DNA of 34,742 nt from Acidobacteriota bacterium (GTDB lineage: Bacteria > Acidobacteriota > Terriglobia > 2-12-FULL-54-10). The notes below the pieces were generated by a model. The model saw only the letters and a list, made by a program, of their open reading frames with translations, was not told the origin of the DNA and searched no databases. The DNA lies in contig SHUM01000038.1 in assembly GCA_009691245.1 (NCBI GenBank), forward strand, positions 1-34,742, in the 5' to 3' direction. A program made the position numbers and the translations under genes. The stretch's first letter is position 1. Each line of letters starts with the position of its first letter. Below, one piece after another: positions 24,579 through 34,514 of this stretch.

Positions 24579-25108
24579 TCAATTTTTGACAAGGGTTTGC
24601 AGGTCAGTCAACGAGTTGGTTGTGCCTTTCGTCCGCACGATGCCTTCTTTATCTATGAGCAGTCCGTAAGGCGTGCCGGGAATCCCATAGGTTTCAAATA
24701 GTTCGGGGGCCACCGCCAGCGGAAGCGGCGCGCCGCCGCCCAGCTTCTGCGCGTAAGTCCGCGCCTCGCCGTCGGGCGGCTGGTCATGAACGACCAACAG
24801 AAGGTTATAGTCCGGGCTTAGGGACGCCGTGAACGGAGCCACGTCGGGAGCCAATTTTCGCACCACGGACATTTCGGCGAAGTGAAAATCAGAACCAGGT
24901 GGCGCGGGGACGGTTCGCCCAGAGCGTGCTTTACGCCCTCGATATCCACCACCTCGCGCCGGGGCGCGGGCTTGCCCAGCGGAAGCCCGTCGGGCGGAAC
25001 TCGGTCCATCAGCAGACCCATGTAGCGGAAAAACGACAAGATTAGCAGCGTCTGAACAATGACGACAATCCATAAGGCGATGTTCGATGCCAGTAGATAA
25101 GCTTCCAT
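24579..25108 (-). pseudogene. MauD-like thioredoxin-fold protein, frameshifted after CPWC
   Basis: From the ATG at 25108 the product has an N-terminal membrane anchor (about 5-27). A MauD-type linker follows with LPLGKPAPRREVVDIEG, then LVLIFTSPKCPWCE with the redox CPWC. Here one A seems to be missing from a short A-run (near 24852-24856). The fold resumes in another frame as KLAPDVAPFTASLSPDYNLL and continues through GIPGTPYGLLIDKEGIVRTK to the stop at 24579. The total length is one base short of a multiple of three. MauD proteins help form or shuffle disulfides in secreted proteins. The start lies four bases after the end of the MauE-like gene, so they form one transcription unit. Whether the frameshift is real is open. 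Confidence 0.75.
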
Positions 25109-25112
25109 GGTC

Positions 25113-25674
25113 CTATGGGGTTTTGATGCGACTCACCATCCGCAGCAATCTGGCCCGCACGTTCAGCAGCTCTTGCACGGCCAGGGGAAAGCACAGCAGT
25201 ATAGACGGCTGCCAGGATGGTCAGCGACGCGGAGGCAGGATTCCCCCAGCTCAACGCAGGGTTAGCCCGCAGCGCAACGATTCCAATCAGCAGGGAAACG
25301 GCCAGCATCAGGGTGTTATGGGCAACATGGCCCCAGCCGATCCGCACCGTTCGCCGGCCGAAGCATTGGCAGTCCAGATTGCGATGCCCGCGCAGCAGGT
25401 TTACGACCAGCGCAACAATGAAGGCGGCCAGCAGACTACCCAGCAGAAACGCGCCAAGCCAAACATAGATGCCCGCCAGCAGCAGGACGCCGCCAGCCAG
25501 CTCCAGTTACACTACGGCCCAGGCCACGGCTGGCGCCAAGCGAGTCGGGACGATCTGAAAACTGTCCACGGCGCTCTGGAAGGCGCGGCGATCCCAGGCT
25601 TTGGAAAGGCCCGCCACAATAAACAGAAGCCCCAGGATGATACGCAAGTAAAGGTATGCGACCGTCATTCCCAT
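25113..25674 (-). pseudogene. MauE/DoxX-like membrane protein, with stop codon and frameshift
   Basis: From the ATG at 25674 the frame reads MGMTVAYLYLRIILGLLFIV and AGLSKAWDRRAFQSAVDSF. A TAA (25509-25507, codon 56) interrupts it, and it then continues LELAGGVLLLAGIYVWLGAF and on to DCQCFGRRTVRIGWGHVAHN. The CxCFG motif (C102, C104 counting the stop) and four-helix layout are typical of MauE-like redox membrane proteins, partners of MauD. Near 25200 an extra base shifts the frame; the proper end LLCFPLAVQELLNVRARLLR then follows, stopping at 25113. Two independent lesions suggest real inactivation. No good ribosome-binding site is seen before 25674. Confidence 0.72.
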
Positions 25675-26372: not shown

Positions 26373-26885
26373 TTAGGAGGCCAGTTTCTTTGCGGCGTCC
26401 AGCGCGGCGTCGAAGTTGACCTGCTCGCTCACTTCCTTCACGTATTCGACATAACGGACCGTATCGTCCTTGTCGAGTACGAATACGGTGCGTGCTTCGA
26501 GCAGAATTTCCTGAATCAGCACGCCGTAGGCCGTGCCGAAATTGCGGTCGCGATAGTCGGAGAGCGTGCGGACTTTATCCACGCCCGCCGCGCCGCACCA
26601 GCGCTTCTGCGCCATGGGCAGGTCCACGCTGACGGTGAGAATCTCGACACCCGGCAGCTTCGCTGCTTCCTCATTGAAGCGCCGTGTCTCGGTGTCGCAC
26701 ACCGGCGTGTCCAGCGAGGGCACCACGGCGATGATGCGCACCTTGCCCGTGGTGTCCGCCAGCGTAACCGGCTTCATGTCATTGCCGGTCAGCGTAAAAT
26801 TCGGGGCCTTGTCTCCCACCTTGATCTCCGGGCCAACCAGAGTCATTGCGTTGCCACGCAGCGTAACCGCACCTTTACGTTCCAT
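26373..26885 (-). CDS. tpx: Thiol peroxidase Tpx
   Basis: Tpx reduces hydrogen and alkyl peroxides using thioredoxin. The 170-residue product matches the usual length. It has VGDKAPNFTLTGNDM (23-37), the peroxidatic C63 in SLDTPVCDTETRRFNEEA, and the resolving C97 in QKRWCGAAGV. The ATG at 26885 is set by AGGAGGAG nine bases upstream; the frame is open a little further upstream but without support. It has no signal peptide. It lies beside other thiol-redox genes but appears to have its own promoter. Confidence 0.95.
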   Translation of the reverse strand: MERKGAVTLRGNAMTLVGPEIKVGDKAPNFTLTGNDMKPVTLADTTGKVRIIAVVPSLDTPVCDTETRRFNEEAAKLPGVEILTVSVDLPMAQKRWCGAAGVDKVRTLSDYRDRNFGTAYGVLIQEILLEARTVFVLDKDDTVRYVEYVKEVSEQVNFDAALDAAKKLAS

Positions 26886-26933
26886 ATTAAGTTGCTCCTC
26901 CTGTGATGAACTGTTTCGCCTGATTAACCTGCC

Positions 26934-26939
26934 AGTATA
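26934..26939 (-). promoter_or_regulatory. Likely -10 box of tpx
   Basis: On the minus strand TATACT lies about 49 bases before the tpx ATG, giving a leader of roughly 40 bases. A weak TTTCAA is found 17 bases further upstream. The 26886-27216 gap between the divergent tpx and peptidase genes holds no gene that I can see. Confidence 0.45.
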
Positions 26940-27216
26940 GCCGCTCGAATCCATACTTGAAAGTACAATTAGGTCATGTCAGCCCCGCCATGCCGCCATG
27001 CCTATCGTGAACGGCAGAGCCCCATCAGCAACGCGATGCGCCCCCCCCGCCCGAATGCACGTCCGGATTCTGCCGAGAACGTGCCTTATCTCCAAGCTAG
27101 CGGCTGAGGAAGCTTGCTCCCTTAACCCCCAATATGGCTCATTGCCTTTGCACAATTGGCTGTATATACTCTCACCATCCCCTCAGTACAGTGAATGGTC
27201 TGCAGGAGGCGGGATC

Positions 27217-29136: not shown

Positions 29137-29994
29137 CTAGAGCTGCTTCAGCAACTCCTGCGCCTTGGCGGCGAATTCACTTTGGGGAAACTCGGAGACC
29201 ACCGCGCCGAGGCTCTTCCTCGCTTTGTCCTTCTTTTCGTCCAGCGCGTAGCCCTGGCCTGCGCCCAGCAGATACGTCGCGCGATTGGCGCTCTTGGAGA
29301 AATCCTTTAAGCACTTCTCGAATGTCGCGGCGGCGGTCTTGCCGTCCATTAATTCCAGAGCGTTCTTGCCGATGGCGAACATCGCGGTTTCGCGCTTCGC
29401 GGCATCTTTCTTTAGATTATTCTGCTTGAGGGCGCGGGTGTAGAAGTCGTTGCTGGATTCATAGAAGCCGGTCTGGCGCATCTCGACGGCCATGGCCACC
29501 AGGCCGTCGGCGCTATTGTTGTCTTCCTGAAGACCGCGATCGAGACGGTTGATCTCCGCCACATCTTTGGGCAGAGCTTTCAGCACCATGATGAGATTTT
29601 CTTTCTCCAGAATGCCGCGATGATAGAACAGCTTGGTGCCGTAGGAGTTGGTGAACAGCATAAAGGGCAGCGCGGGGATGCTGTATTTACGCGCCAACTC
29701 CTGCTGCATGTCGAAATGAATCTTCACGCTAACGACATGCTCATTGATCGCTGCGATCACTTCCGGGTCGGGATAGACGTCGGCGTCCATCACTTTGCAG
29801 GCCGTGCACCAGTCGGCCCAGAAATCCACCATCATGATCTTGTTCTCTTTGAGGGCGGTCTCGCTGGCCTTCTCGATGTCATTGAACCAGTAGATGCCGC
29901 CCGGCTCTTCGGCGCGCAGCAGGTTGCCGGATGCAGCAGCAAACAGGATGGCCAGCGTCAGTGTAATTTTTGTGCGCAGGATGGATTTCAGCAT
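29137..29994 (-). CDS. Secreted thioredoxin-like protein with TPR-type C-terminus
   Basis: The 285-residue product has a signal peptide (about 1-28). Its thioredoxin domain is of the DsbD-C-terminal/thioredoxin_7 type: MMVDFWADWCTACKVMDADV gives C63 and C66, and YSIPALPFMLF holds the cis-proline (P110). The remaining helical part (about 155-285) looks like TPR repeats, with SNDFYTRALKQNN and AATFEKCLKDFSKSANRATY. It should reduce or shuffle disulfides in the periplasm, perhaps on partners held by the TPR part. GAGGAAA lies five bases before the ATG at 29994. It starts 22 bp after the UxxC selenoprotein gene, so the two are very likely co-transcribed and may form a redox couple. Confidence 0.87.
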   Translation of the reverse strand: MLKSILRTKITLTLAILFAAASGNLLRAEEPGGIYWFNDIEKASETALKENKIMMVDFWADWCTACKVMDADVYPDPEVIAAINEHVVSVKIHFDMQQELARKYSIPALPFMLFTNSYGTKLFYHRGILEKENLIMVLKALPKDVAEINRLDRGLQEDNNSADGLVAMAVEMRQTGFYESSNDFYTRALKQNNLKKDAAKRETAMFAIGKNALELMDGKTAAATFEKCLKDFSKSANRATYLLGAGQGYALDEKKDKARKSLGAVVSEFPQSEFAAKAQELLKQL

Positions 29995-30016: not shown

Positions 30017-30643
30017 TTATTGCTGCTCGCTCGGTGAGGTGGCGGCGGGTGTGGCAGAAGATACGCCGGACTGCTTCAATCCGTCGATGCCTTCCAGTAA
30101 TTTATTGCGTGCCTGGAGAATAGTTCGGCCCAGCGTTATGCGCGGACCAGGCTCGGCTTCCAGTTTAATCTCCGGCCACTCCGCGTCCGGCCCGTAAAGA
30201 TAAAACGCGTCCCACTGAATTGGCCCCTTGGGCGGCAACTCCTGGACCACTTCCTTGAACCACTTGCCGGTCTCTTTTTTGCTGTCCCAATAGTGCGACA
30301 CGCGCTTGTCCGGCAGTATCTTCCGTGCGGTGGGAAACGCCTCCGGGGTGTCGCTCTTAATCATCGAGTACCAGATCGTATAGACCTTGAGATTCAGATC
30401 AGGATTCTTCTTGAGCACATAGTCCTGTATCCACTGGGCACCGCCCAGGCAACCCATTCAGGTGGGCGAGACCAGCACCACCAGCCGCGGCACGCCCTTG
30501 TCCTTGTTGAACTGCTCGCGGACATCCTCGAGCACGCCGGCCTGCGCGCTGGCGATCACCGCGGGAGCGATGCTCATGGCCAGCAGCAGAATCAACGGGA
30601 GAAGAAAGTCCTGGGTTCGGCGGGTCGTCGAATGCACGGTCAT
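30017..30643 (-). CDS. Thioredoxin-fold selenoprotein candidate with U-x-x-C active site (UGA read-through)
   Basis: Two frames meet without a gap at a single UGA (30460-30458). Before it lies a signal peptide (about 11-35, ending ASAQA) and a strand PRLVVLVSPT. After it come MGCLGGAQWIQDYVLKKNP and the strand LKVYTIWYSMI. Together they form a thioredoxin fold, with UGA exactly where the first Cys of CxxC belongs (U62-M-G-C65). Later parts include VSHYWDSKKETGKWFKEV and WDAFYLYGPDAEWPEI, as in a family of secreted thioredoxin-like proteins. Total length is 208 residues with Sec. A SECIS-like hairpin follows the UGA. The ATG at 30643 touches the AAGGGA ribosome-binding site, so the GTG at 30637 (six bases away) is the better start. 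The Sec machinery genes are not in the window, so this is a strong inference, not proof. Confidence 0.8.
30434..30460 (-). promoter_or_regulatory. Bacterial SECIS-like hairpin at the in-frame UGA
   Basis: After the UGA (30460-30458) nine bases intervene. Then CTGGGC (30448-30443) pairs perfectly with GCCCAG (30439-30434) around the loop GGT (30442-30440). The loop begins 16 bases after the UGA and starts with G, which fits the known limits for bacterial SECIS elements. The E. coli fdhF element also presents GGU in its loop. It lies inside the coding region, as bacterial SECIS elements must. Confidence 0.7.
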
Positions 30644-30818: not shown

Positions 30819-31277
30819 CTACTTGGTCGTCTTTAACCCTTCGGTCTTGGCGGTTTCCAGATTGTCGAGATTTCTGCCGTAGAGCAGATTGTTCATCTGC
30901 TCATTCCAGCCGATGGCGAACCAGGCCTTCAGCAACTCCAACTGTTTGGGCGTAAGCTTCACCGCGGCGTCCTGAAACAACTGTAGCGTGGCCACATCCA
31001 CCGCCTTGTTGTACTTGCGCGCCCAGACGGTCCACTCTTCGGCGTCTGCTCCCTTCAGGCCCAGGATCGCGGCGGTGCCGTGCGTACACACCTGTCCGGT
31101 CTTCATCGTGGGGCAGAAGATGGATTCCTTGCCGTCGGCGCGGCTGGTTTCCTTGGCCGCCTCGCTCTTGCTTTCCTTGCTTTGCTCGCTGAACAGGTCC
31201 TGCCCAAACGCGGACGTCCCGAACGCGAAGGCAAGCAACGCGACCATTGGCACAAAATTCAAGCTGGTCCGAATCAT
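30819..31277 (-). CDS. Small secreted protein with two cysteines, function unknown
   Basis: The 153-residue product has a signal peptide (about 1-25, ending SAFGQ). A charged Ser/Lys/Glu-rich linker follows, then IFCPTMKTGQVCTHGTAAIL with the only two Cys, and a helical C-terminal half (VDVATLQLFQDAAVKLTPKQ, LELLKAWFAIGWNEQMNNLL). I do not recognise the family. AGGAGG lies five bases before the ATG at 31277. It is the first gene of a minus-strand row with the UxxC protein and the thioredoxin, although 175 bp with a palindrome separate it from them. It might be a redox substrate of those proteins; that is inference from position. Confidence 0.7.
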   Translation of the reverse strand: MIRTSLNFVPMVALLAFAFGTSAFGQDLFSEQSKESKSEAAKETSRADGKESIFCPTMKTGQVCTHGTAAILGLKGADAEEWTVWARKYNKAVDVATLQLFQDAAVKLTPKQLELLKAWFAIGWNEQMNNLLYGRNLDNLETAKTEGLKTTK

Positions 31278-31417
31278 TTGGTCCTCCTGCGGGTATTGAA
31301 ATCGCAAAATTGCATATAAGTAGTGGGAGGGTCGGCCCCCGCCATCCCTCCCACATTCTGGGTCGAGTCTAGCATCAAACAGTTCCAAACTCACCCAAAC
31401 TCGCCTAGTTCAAAATC

Positions 31418-31511: not shown

Positions 31512-34500
31512 CTAGAACTGGAACCGCACTCCCAACTGCACCTGAAACGGCGTCGTCCGCAGCGTGCTGCTGGTGATGTAAGCATTGGTGGCCACATCAC
31601 GGACGCGCCCGAAGTTGGCGTTCGTGGCGGACACATCCAGGCTGTTGCCGTAAACCTGCTGGGCGGCGCTGATCTCGACGTTATCGAAATCGAGCAGGTT
31701 GAAGAACTCTGTCGAGAACGAAAGCGTGCCACGCTCGTTGGGCAGCGTGAACGACTTCTGCACGCGCAGGCTGGTGTCGGCAAATCCGCTGTTGCGGAAC
31801 GTGTAGCGCGGGATCGGATTACCGTTCTGCAGCGGGCGATCATTATTGTTGCCGTCCCGGTTTGAATCCACGCCGGTGCGCGGGCTGTAGGGACGTCCGG
31901 TGTTGAAGCGATTGACGGTGGAAAGCTCGATGCCCTTCGGCAGGAAGAACACTGCGCTCGAAGCAAACTGATGGCGCTGATCAATCTGCGTCCAGCTATA
32001 TTCGTTGTTCAGGTCGAAGGCGTTCTCATAGAAGGGAGCGCTGACGCCGCCGTTCTCATGCTCGTCATAGCCCTTGTTGAAGCCCAGGGTATAGGAAGCG
32101 TCGATGGTGTAGCGCGAACGGCGCAGGCTCATGGAGGCGACCATGCCGCGATAGAATCCGCGAGCCGACGACTCCGTGATGTAGACCTGCGCATACTGTT
32201 GGTTGGGACGCAGCGAGTTCAGGCTGGTGGCTGCCGACGGCGTATAGACCGGGCGGCCTGTCGCATCGCGCACGGGAGCGGGCAGGTTGGTGTCGCGGAC
32301 GCGGTCCATGCGTGTGGTGTTGATGCTGGTGTAGTCAATCGAGGCCGTGAAGCCGCTGGCGATCTGCTGCTCCAGCGCGACGCGATACTGGAACGAGCGG
32401 GCCAAACGGAAATCGGGCTGCATGTAATACACTTGAGCGGTGCTGTTGGGCAGGCGGCTGAGTTGATCGGCATTGAACACCGGAAGCGCATTCAGCGCCG
32501 CATTGCCGAGGTTGATTCCCTGATTGTTAAACGCGTTGCGGATGTCCGTCAGGTTCGTCAGGTTGACGCTCTTGCCCAGTTCCGGATTGCCGCCGTTGAA
32601 AGCGATGGCCTGTTCCCACAGCGTGATGTACGGCGGAGCGTAGAACACACCGGCAGCGGCGCGCAGAACGGTCTTGGCGTCCTGGCGAAGATCCCAGGCC
32701 AGGCCCATGCGCGGTCCATACATCTCCTTGTCGTCCTGGATAGGCTCGGTGGCAAACCGGCGCGAAGGCAGAGTGGCCGGCTCGTAGTCAGGCAGCAGAG
32801 CCATCTCATAACGGAAGCCGGGGCTTAAGGTCAATCCACGGCCCACGCGCCACTCGTCTTGCAGGTAGAACGCGATCTGGTGCTTGTGTGGCGTGGTGAC
32901 GCCTGAACCGGCGAACTGCGAGTAGGCGCCGGGAGTACGATCCAGGAACCCTTGCAGGCTGTCGAAGCGATACACGCCGTTATAGCCGGGGTTGAAACGG
33001 ACCTCGGAATTGACGAGGTTGGCGTCGAAGCCGATCTTCATGGTGTGTGTGCCGGTAACGATCGAGTAGTTATCAATAAACTGATTGCGCCGGTCCGAGA
33101 ACTTGTATCCGACGTTGCCATAGCTCAGCCCCGTGCCTTGCGGTCCATAGATGGCCAGCGTCTGGCCGGAATTGTTGACCGTGACCTCCGGGCCATCGCC
33201 CGGTTCCCAGGGGCGGAATTCGCTGGCCACCGTGTAACGGAACTCATTGACGGTGCGCGGTGAGAGGACCGAGGAAAGCTGCACCATCCCGGTATAGTTC
33301 GTGCGATTGCTGGTCGGGGCGGCATTGGTCGCATCGCGGTTGGTGATGGAGCCGGCGCCCAGTCCGTTGGTGTTGATGAACGAGCCAATCACGCCGGTAA
33401 TCTCGTTGCGCGTGAAATCAAAACGAGTGGTCAGGGTGTTGTTGTCGTTGATGCTGTGGTCCACGCGGTTGACGGTGGACTGCAATTCGCTGTTCGACTT
33501 GATGTTTTGCTCGGAAGCGATAGAAAGCAGTGTCTGCCCGCCGACCGTACCGCGCAGGTTTTGCGCATCCAGTTGCTCGTAGAGCACCTGAATGGGTTTG
33601 TTGTTGTACTGGAACTCACCGGCGCTGAAGAAGAACGTTTTGTCCTTCCGGATCGGGCCGCCGAAGGAGCCGCCGAACTGGTTGCCATTGGTAATCTGCT
33701 CGCGGCCAAAGGGATCGGTCTTGGTCAGCGATTCGTTCCGTCCCAGATAAAAGCCTGAACCGTGGAACTGGTTGGTGCCGGTCTTGGTGGCTAGATTCAC
33801 GATACCGCCGGTGGAGCGGCCGAACTCGGCGGAGAAGGTGCTGCGGAGCACCTGGAGTTCCCGGATCGACTCCACGGATATTGTCGGCGTCATTTCCACA
33901 TGGCCGCAGAAGTGCGAGCTGGTGTAATCGCCGCCGTCCACGTTGAAGCTGGTGTAGACGCCCTTTTGTCCGGAGATGGAGAAGCCGCCGCACTCCGGCT
34001 CAATCTGCGTCGCGGGCGTCAGCAGAAATAAATTCTTGATCCGGCGTCCCGGCGCGGGAATATTCTGCAACTGAATCTCGGTCAGCACTGCCTTGGAGAA
34101 TGTTTGCGCCGGTTCAATGACCGTGGCAGCGTCTGCCCTGACGTTCGCCGTTTCGCGGACCGACTTCATGCCCAGGGTGAATGTCGCATTGGCGCGCCCG
34201 CCGAGCGAAACGTAAACTTTCTGGCTGGACGCCTCCATGTTGGCTGGCTTCACGGTGACTTCATATTCGCCCACTGGCACTGGGCCGATGGCGTAGCGGC
34301 CGGAGCCGTCGGTGGTTACCGTGCGAGTCTGGTTGGTGTCGATATTGCGGGAGACGACTTCCTGTCCCGTCACGGCGGCGCCGGAAGGATCGAGCACCTG
34401 CCCGCCGATCTGTCCGCTATTGCCCGATGACTGCGCGAACGCTGTCCCTGTGGCCAGCGACAGGACCATCATCATCAGCAGCGCTGCGTGCTGAAATTGC

Positions 34501-34514
34501 TTTTGAATCTTCAC
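31512..34514 (-). CDS. TonB-dependent receptor, Oar-like, third copy
   Basis: This 1000-residue outer-membrane receptor starts at GTG (34514) with GGAGGA six bases upstream. The signal peptide is about 1-28 (ends TAFAQ). A carboxypeptidase-regulatory-like domain begins GQIGGQVLDPSGAAVTGQE. The plug region contains GYxS-like FSISGQKGVYTSFNVDGGDY and ELQVLRSTFSAEFGRSTGG, and the barrel runs to the terminal VRFQF. Compared with the two plus-strand receptors it is shorter and distinct in sequence, with two plug-domain Cys (in EPECGGF and SHFCGHV) that could form a disulfide. Such a bond would be a possible client of the neighbouring redox proteins. Substrate unknown. A perfect palindrome follows the stop and another precedes the start. 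Confidence 0.9.
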   Translation of the reverse strand: MKIQKQFQHAALLMMMVLSLATGTAFAQSSGNSGQIGGQVLDPSGAAVTGQEVVSRNIDTNQTRTVTTDGSGRYAIGPVPVGEYEVTVKPANMEASSQKVYVSLGGRANATFTLGMKSVRETANVRADAATVIEPAQTFSKAVLTEIQLQNIPAPGRRIKNLFLLTPATQIEPECGGFSISGQKGVYTSFNVDGGDYTSSHFCGHVEMTPTISVESIRELQVLRSTFSAEFGRSTGGIVNLATKTGTNQFHGSGFYLGRNESLTKTDPFGREQITNGNQFGGSFGGPIRKDKTFFFSAGEFQYNNKPIQVLYEQLDAQNLRGTVGGQTLLSIASEQNIKSNSELQSTVNRVDHSINDNNTLTTRFDFTRNEITGVIGSFINTNGLGAGSITNRDATNAAPTSNRTNYTGMVQLSSVLSPRTVNEFRYTVASEFRPWEPGDGPEVTVNNSGQTLAIYGPQGTGLSYGNVGYKFSDRRNQFIDNYSIVTGTHTMKIGFDANLVNSEVRFNPGYNGVYRFDSLQGFLDRTPGAYSQFAGSGVTTPHKHQIAFYLQDEWRVGRGLTLSPGFRYEMALLPDYEPATLPSRRFATEPIQDDKEMYGPRMGLAWDLRQDAKTVLRAAAGVFYAPPYITLWEQAIAFNGGNPELGKSVNLTNLTDIRNAFNNQGINLGNAALNALPVFNADQLSRLPNSTAQVYYMQPDFRLARSFQYRVALEQQIASGFTASIDYTSINTTRMDRVRDTNLPAPVRDATGRPVYTPSAATSLNSLRPNQQYAQVYITESSARGFYRGMVASMSLRRSRYTIDASYTLGFNKGYDEHENGGVSAPFYENAFDLNNEYSWTQIDQRHQFASSAVFFLPKGIELSTVNRFNTGRPYSPRTGVDSNRDGNNNDRPLQNGNPIPRYTFRNSGFADTSLRVQKSFTLPNERGTLSFSTEFFNLLDFDNVEISAAQQVYGNSLDVSATNANFGRVRDVATNAYITSSTLRTTPFQVQLGVRFQF

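Follow-up and report, generated by a model that had tools for sequence, protein, structure and literature searches.

The question raised by this locus is whether a UGA codon within an open frame is read as selenocysteine (Sec) and, if so, what kind of protein carries it. In the window, that is, the whole stretch of 34,742 nucleotides of acidobacterial DNA that was analyzed, a frame on the minus strand runs uninterrupted from M1 (30643) to its stop codon and encodes 208 residues when TGA is translated as U; the sole UGA is at residue 62 (TCA on the plus strand, 30458-30460), and a cysteine is present at residue 65. The sequence around the UGA is RLVVLVSPT-U-MGCLGGAQWIQDYV, with the core SPT-U-MGC; the motif stretch can be written RLVVLVSPT-U-MGCLGGAQWIQDY. 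The initial annotation described a frame interrupted by one UGA only, and the translation with U at residue 62 confirmed it; the strand (minus) was absent from that annotation. The gene, its elements and its immediate neighbours are the following.

30017..30643, minus strand: predicted selenoprotein gene; with TGA as U the translation has 208 aa, Sec62 and a putative secreted thioredoxin fold
30539..30643, minus strand: putative N-terminal signal peptide, residues about 1-35, with an AxA-type end, from reading of the sequence; pLDDT is low before residue 35
30458..30460, minus strand: in-frame UGA, residue 62, seen in the sequence; it aligns with TGA in 51 and with Cys (TGC) in 3 of 54 members
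30449..30451, minus strand: Cys65, the Cys of the UxxC motif and its putative resolving residue, present in all of the 29 aligned members
30434..30448, minus strand: putative SECIS hairpin CUGGGC-GGU-GCCCAG, loop 15 nt 3' of the UGA; fold of -12.1 kcal/mol for the stretch, with a covarying family hairpin at nearly the same place
29137..29994, minus strand: secreted thioredoxin (CTAC) with a TPR-like tail, Pfam Thioredoxin 8.6e-13, 22 bases downstream
30819..31394, minus strand: small secreted protein, upstream; similar ORFs occur in the genus-mate locus L004, likewise upstream

The standard list of open reading frames gives for this region just a 146-aa ORF, which starts at the ATG directly 3' of the UGA. 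Since both strands of the window together contain 18 comparable UGA-split frames (a TGA with >55 and >140 open codons at its sides), the split frame alone is weak evidence and is not significant; what makes it significant is that the UGA column, the protein around it and the hairpin are conserved across dozens of species. Over the 120 codons located 3' of the UGA, the comparison of the window with a genome of the same genus (G031) gave a dN/dS of 0.039 (dN 0.051, dS 1.32), so the part of the protein that follows the UGA is under strong purifying selection, and it is thus translated and needed.

Of the 399 genomes of this class that were searched with the protein, 59 have a homologue, and in 53 of these the match crosses an in-frame TGA. 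The 30 loci that were read show the motif (S/D/E)PTUxxCxxG; the codon of the U column is TGA in every locus except one, which has TGC. A profile made from 29 members matched 48 of the 396 genomes of a phylum-wide sample; 35 are TGA genomes outside the class set, and about ten stop-free genomes were also obtained. When 54 loci were aligned on the motif, TGA was present in 51 and Cys in three (L015, L066 and L075); among further loci, L054 and L074 have Cys and L052 has TGA. The UGA is then conserved in 53 class genomes and in 35 of the phylum sample, and the stop-free members that were read, these five, all have Cys at the column, a residue-level reading that leaves out five weak stop-free matches of the class search and five of the phylum search. 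A scan of a genome-contig collection with the single protein matched the genus-mate only, and no relatives were found in plasmid and viral collections. In the tree, where many deep forks are weak, the three aligned Cys members are scattered among Sec members, which favours Sec as the ancestral state of the family. The initial annotation had proposed that homologues should align Sec or Cys with residue 62, as is the case (motif PT(U/C)xxC), and that a TGC or TGT in place of the TGA would refute its reading; a separate genome of the same genus (locus L004) has TGA at the same codon, which argues against a sequencing error. It missed that the family of this gene extends across the phylum and mostly has Sec, and that many of the members are located in mercury-resistance-like clusters.

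A hairpin is present directly 3' of the UGA in the family. In most members it begins 10 nt after the UGA, as in CUGCGGGG-GGC-CUCCGCAG, and the hairpin of the window is offset two bases from this register. For the 51 TGA members, the eight-pair helix averages 6.86 pairs as compared with 4.58 under random synonymous recoding (z 15.9), and other helix registers score below the main one. Covariation was evaluated in all 51 members: 85.8% of the cells are paired versus 68.0% after shuffling, double changes amount to 66 versus 21, and none of 1000 shuffles reached either the paired fraction or the number of double changes. Shuffles leave the effect of relatedness in; slid registers (slides 1 to 3), which retain the kinship of the sequences, yielded only 41-57% paired cells, far below the main register. 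A hand-picked subset of members that have the main register (alignment A3) agrees, and the unselected 51-member count is the one to rely on. The energy of the whole fold in the 36 nt after the UGA gave a mean z of -0.86; this is a weak test in this background and was replaced by the helix-specific one. The published bSECIS model asks for a loop of 3-9 nt with G in the first two loop positions, a stem of 4-16 bp, a spacing of 16-37 nt and an MFE <= -7.5 (PMC13188914); the hairpin of the window fits it in its 6 bp, its GGU loop and its -12.1 kcal/mol, and its spacing of 15 nt is one short. Taken alone, the window hairpin is no better than synonymous recodings; it is at the level of the family that a covarying helix just 3' of the UGA, as demanded of a SECIS element, was found.

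The initial annotation had also called for a search of the same genome for selA, selB, selC and selD, and all four were found: the genome encodes SelA, SelB, a tRNA-Sec with a UCA anticodon and a SelD that contains a UGA. For the class, SelB was found in 50 of the 53 genomes that have the TGA form and in 242 of the 346 others sampled (p 3.6e-5, for genomes that are not phylogenetically independent); the three TGA genomes that lack it are 82-84% complete. In the phylum sample SelB was found in 30 of the 35 TGA genomes, the other five being fragmented assemblies of 270-950 contigs. A genome with the Cys form that is 99% complete (G174) does not have SelB, and nine other stop-free genomes retain it. 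The selD gene (L043, G000:C9:54052-54990, minus strand) carries its own in-frame TGA (KAAGUASK), and judging by the sequence SelD is likely a second selenoprotein of this organism; a GGU-looped hairpin can be drawn after its UGA, where it is not the minimum-energy fold. Just upstream of the tRNA-Sec gene (L035:1501-1594, G000:C16) there are two matches to the Acido-Lenti-1 RNA (RF01687) in opposite orientations, L035:1263-1308 (minus) and L035:1409-1455 (plus).

The structure that AlphaFold predicted from the family alignment, in which Cys was substituted for Sec, reached a pLDDT of 85.5 and a pTM of 0.77. Residue 62 is placed between a strand (53-58) and a helix (63-77) that it caps, and in Foldseek the nearest structures are TlpA/ResA/DsbE-like thiol-disulfide oxidoreductases, together with glutathione peroxidases (best E 5.7e-5). 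The predicted model is accordingly a thioredoxin fold with UxxC at the N-terminus of the first helix, which backs the fold given by the initial annotation and, together with the PT(U/C)xxC motif of the homologues, its claim that the UGA replaces the first Cys of a thioredoxin active site; the periplasmic location that it suggested is consistent with the signal peptide visible in the sequence. The invariant pair W144-D145 is found directly before strand 146-155; judging by sequence and secondary structure, this Trp-Asp would precede the strand in which thioredoxins usually have their cis-proline. No family of Pfam or NCBIfam (June 2026) reached its cut-off for any of the 29 members, sequence searches of the PDB gave nothing useful, the motif string gave no hit in the literature, and the 119-family selenoprotein catalogue of 2026 has no entry matching the motif. 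With relatives searched within the phylum and the catalogue consulted by its entries, this is an apparently uncatalogued selenoprotein family of the UxxC thioredoxin-fold kind.

Other readings of the UGA were weighed. The assembly consists of 96 contigs, and split frames of such size are common by chance in the window, so the UGA could be a mutation or a misread of a Cys codon in a pseudogene; given the TGA at the same codon in 53 class and 35 phylum genomes, the strong purifying selection past it and the conserved hairpin, we consider this extremely improbable. Termination at the UGA with re-initiation would yield two proteins, and it is formally possible in this one genus because the next codon is ATG in the window and in the genus-mate; other TGA members have TCC, CCG, GCG, ACG and so on at that position, the Cys members have a single frame, and the split would separate the first strand from the active-site helix of the predicted fold, which leaves this reading very unlikely. 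The frame would be equally open under any code in which UGA is sense, and suppression or a changed code could insert another residue, e.g. Trp. However, the column aligns with Cys and not with Trp, the genome encodes a machinery dedicated to Sec, the hairpin covaries, and the remaining genes of the window end normally, so this is hardly credible. On the strength of the UGA conservation, the alignment with Cys, the purifying selection and the hairpin, the three readings were rejected. Sequence data could hardly lend much firmer support to the view that the UGA stands for Sec in an exported protein with a thioredoxin fold; the conservation of the UGA, the covariation of the hairpin, the Sec machinery and the neighbouring genes were directly observed.

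The gene order selenoprotein-thioredoxin is the same in the genus-mate G031, and the downstream thioredoxin, likely encoded in the same operon as the selenoprotein, is a candidate reductant. The small secreted protein encoded upstream has no Pfam or NCBIfam match. Beyond these genes, the window contains at 31512-34514 (minus) an outer-membrane beta-barrel protein with a carboxypeptidase-regulatory domain, and a receptor-like ORF occupies the same relative place in the genus-mate contig; a peroxiredoxin of the AhpC/TSA-Redoxin family is encoded at 26373-26954 (minus), about 3 kb from the selenoprotein gene. Two short ORFs at 24579-25347 (minus), neither of which has a Pfam match, look like parts of one thioredoxin-like gene, possibly frameshifted, whose C-terminal part includes ...YGIPGTPYGLLIDKEG...

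A different neighbourhood was revealed by a pattern search in the relatives: 24 of 54 have, at a distance of up to about 1.7 kb, a gene of the MerT/MerC-like, DF-family, MerR or CopZ-like type, and often a MerT-like gene ends just before the selenoprotein gene. Representative neighbours match the Pfam families MerT, MerC, MerR, CopZ zinc-binding and cation efflux, and the NCBIfam DF family. The window locus itself has no mer-like linkage, and its gene precedes the periplasmic thioredoxin instead; the clade of the window copy includes L064, which adjoins MerT. In the window genome no DF-family match was found, and MerT gave no match in a search whose positive controls gave no match either. The DF-family (NF049942) proteins adjoin MerT-like genes and the selenoprotein gene in the region L029:722-1043, and also in L011, L014, L018, L020, L022, L023, L024, L026 and L027, which suggests a mercury or metal context for this uncharacterised family too.

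From these results we are highly confident that the gene encodes an exported thioredoxin-fold selenoprotein in which the UGA at 30460..30458 is read as Sec. SelB and the tRNA-Sec would decode the UGA, guided by the hairpin directly 3' of the codon; the product would be exported and would adopt a thioredoxin fold whose first long helix has Sec62-x-x-Cys65 at its N-terminal end. In the periplasm, Sec62 would most likely attack a disulfide (or bind a soft metal), Cys65 would resolve the Sec62 intermediate, and the protein would probably be reduced again by the thioredoxin whose gene lies 22 bases downstream. A periplasmic selenol/thiol pair for thiol-disulfide exchange is thus the most likely mechanism.

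Selenolates bind mercury tightly, and the selenoprotein could instead be a metal-binding protein, a selenol-based mercury carrier similar to MerP. The position of the gene directly after a MerT-like gene in many relatives speaks for this job, as do the MerR and DF-family genes upstream, or the MerC, CopZ-like and cation-efflux genes nearby, that many of them have; nevertheless, the predicted fold and the position of UxxC are typical of thiol oxidoreductases, the window copy is paired with a thioredoxin, MerT was not found in the window genome (by the search whose controls failed to match), and in 30 of the 54 relatives the inspected surroundings of roughly 1.7 kb contain no mer-like gene. We regard metal binding in place of thiol-disulfide exchange as possible but rather unlikely. 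Mercury or metal handling by the MerT-linked relatives, a role that rests on their neighbours, is plausible, if short of probable. A tentative broader scenario is that the family was ancestrally Sec and works with MerT-type transporters as a periplasmic selenium-based mercury carrier or reductase that replaces MerP, with scattered reversions to Cys, and that the window copy was recruited to a thioredoxin-linked redox pathway.

These observations add an apparently uncatalogued selenoprotein family to the Acidobacteriota, a phylum that is common in soils and has received little study with regard to selenium. In selenoprotein families the Cys members usually outnumber the Sec members; the members found here show the reverse, mostly Sec and few Cys, and this may be the reason that the family escapes searches seeded with Cys homologues. 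Ordinary gene calling would leave a 146-aa fragment without the signal peptide and the active-site Sec. Through the link with MerT-like genes, it can be tested directly whether protein-bound selenium serves bacteria against mercury.

The family resembles several known systems and differs from each of them. It shares with the TlpA/ResA/DsbE (CcmG)-type oxidoreductases, its nearest solved structures, the thioredoxin fold, the export and the active-site pair at the helix start, and differs in having no sequence-profile match, Sec for the first Cys and an invariant Trp-Asp that would precede the strand in which the cis-proline usually lies. Sec, and in several cases UxxC, are common to the thioredoxin-like selenoproteins of the catalogue (Trx UxxC, SaoT NF040730, VPGUxxT, HUIPC and DsbG-like); nonetheless, the NCBIfam models of those families match 0 of the 29 members, whose motif is (S/D)PTUxxCxxG. 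The DF-family (seleno)protein NF049942 is a neighbour in the same clusters and has some Sec members, but it is a distinct product of about 105 aa whose gene lies upstream, and its model does not match the new family. In classical mer operons merP follows merT. Like MerP, the new protein has an exported two-chalcogen motif, and in many relatives its gene comes immediately after a MerT-like one; MerP is a small heavy-metal-associated domain, whereas the members of the new family, for which the Pfam and NCBIfam scans gave no family match, have about 190-210 aa and a predicted thioredoxin fold.
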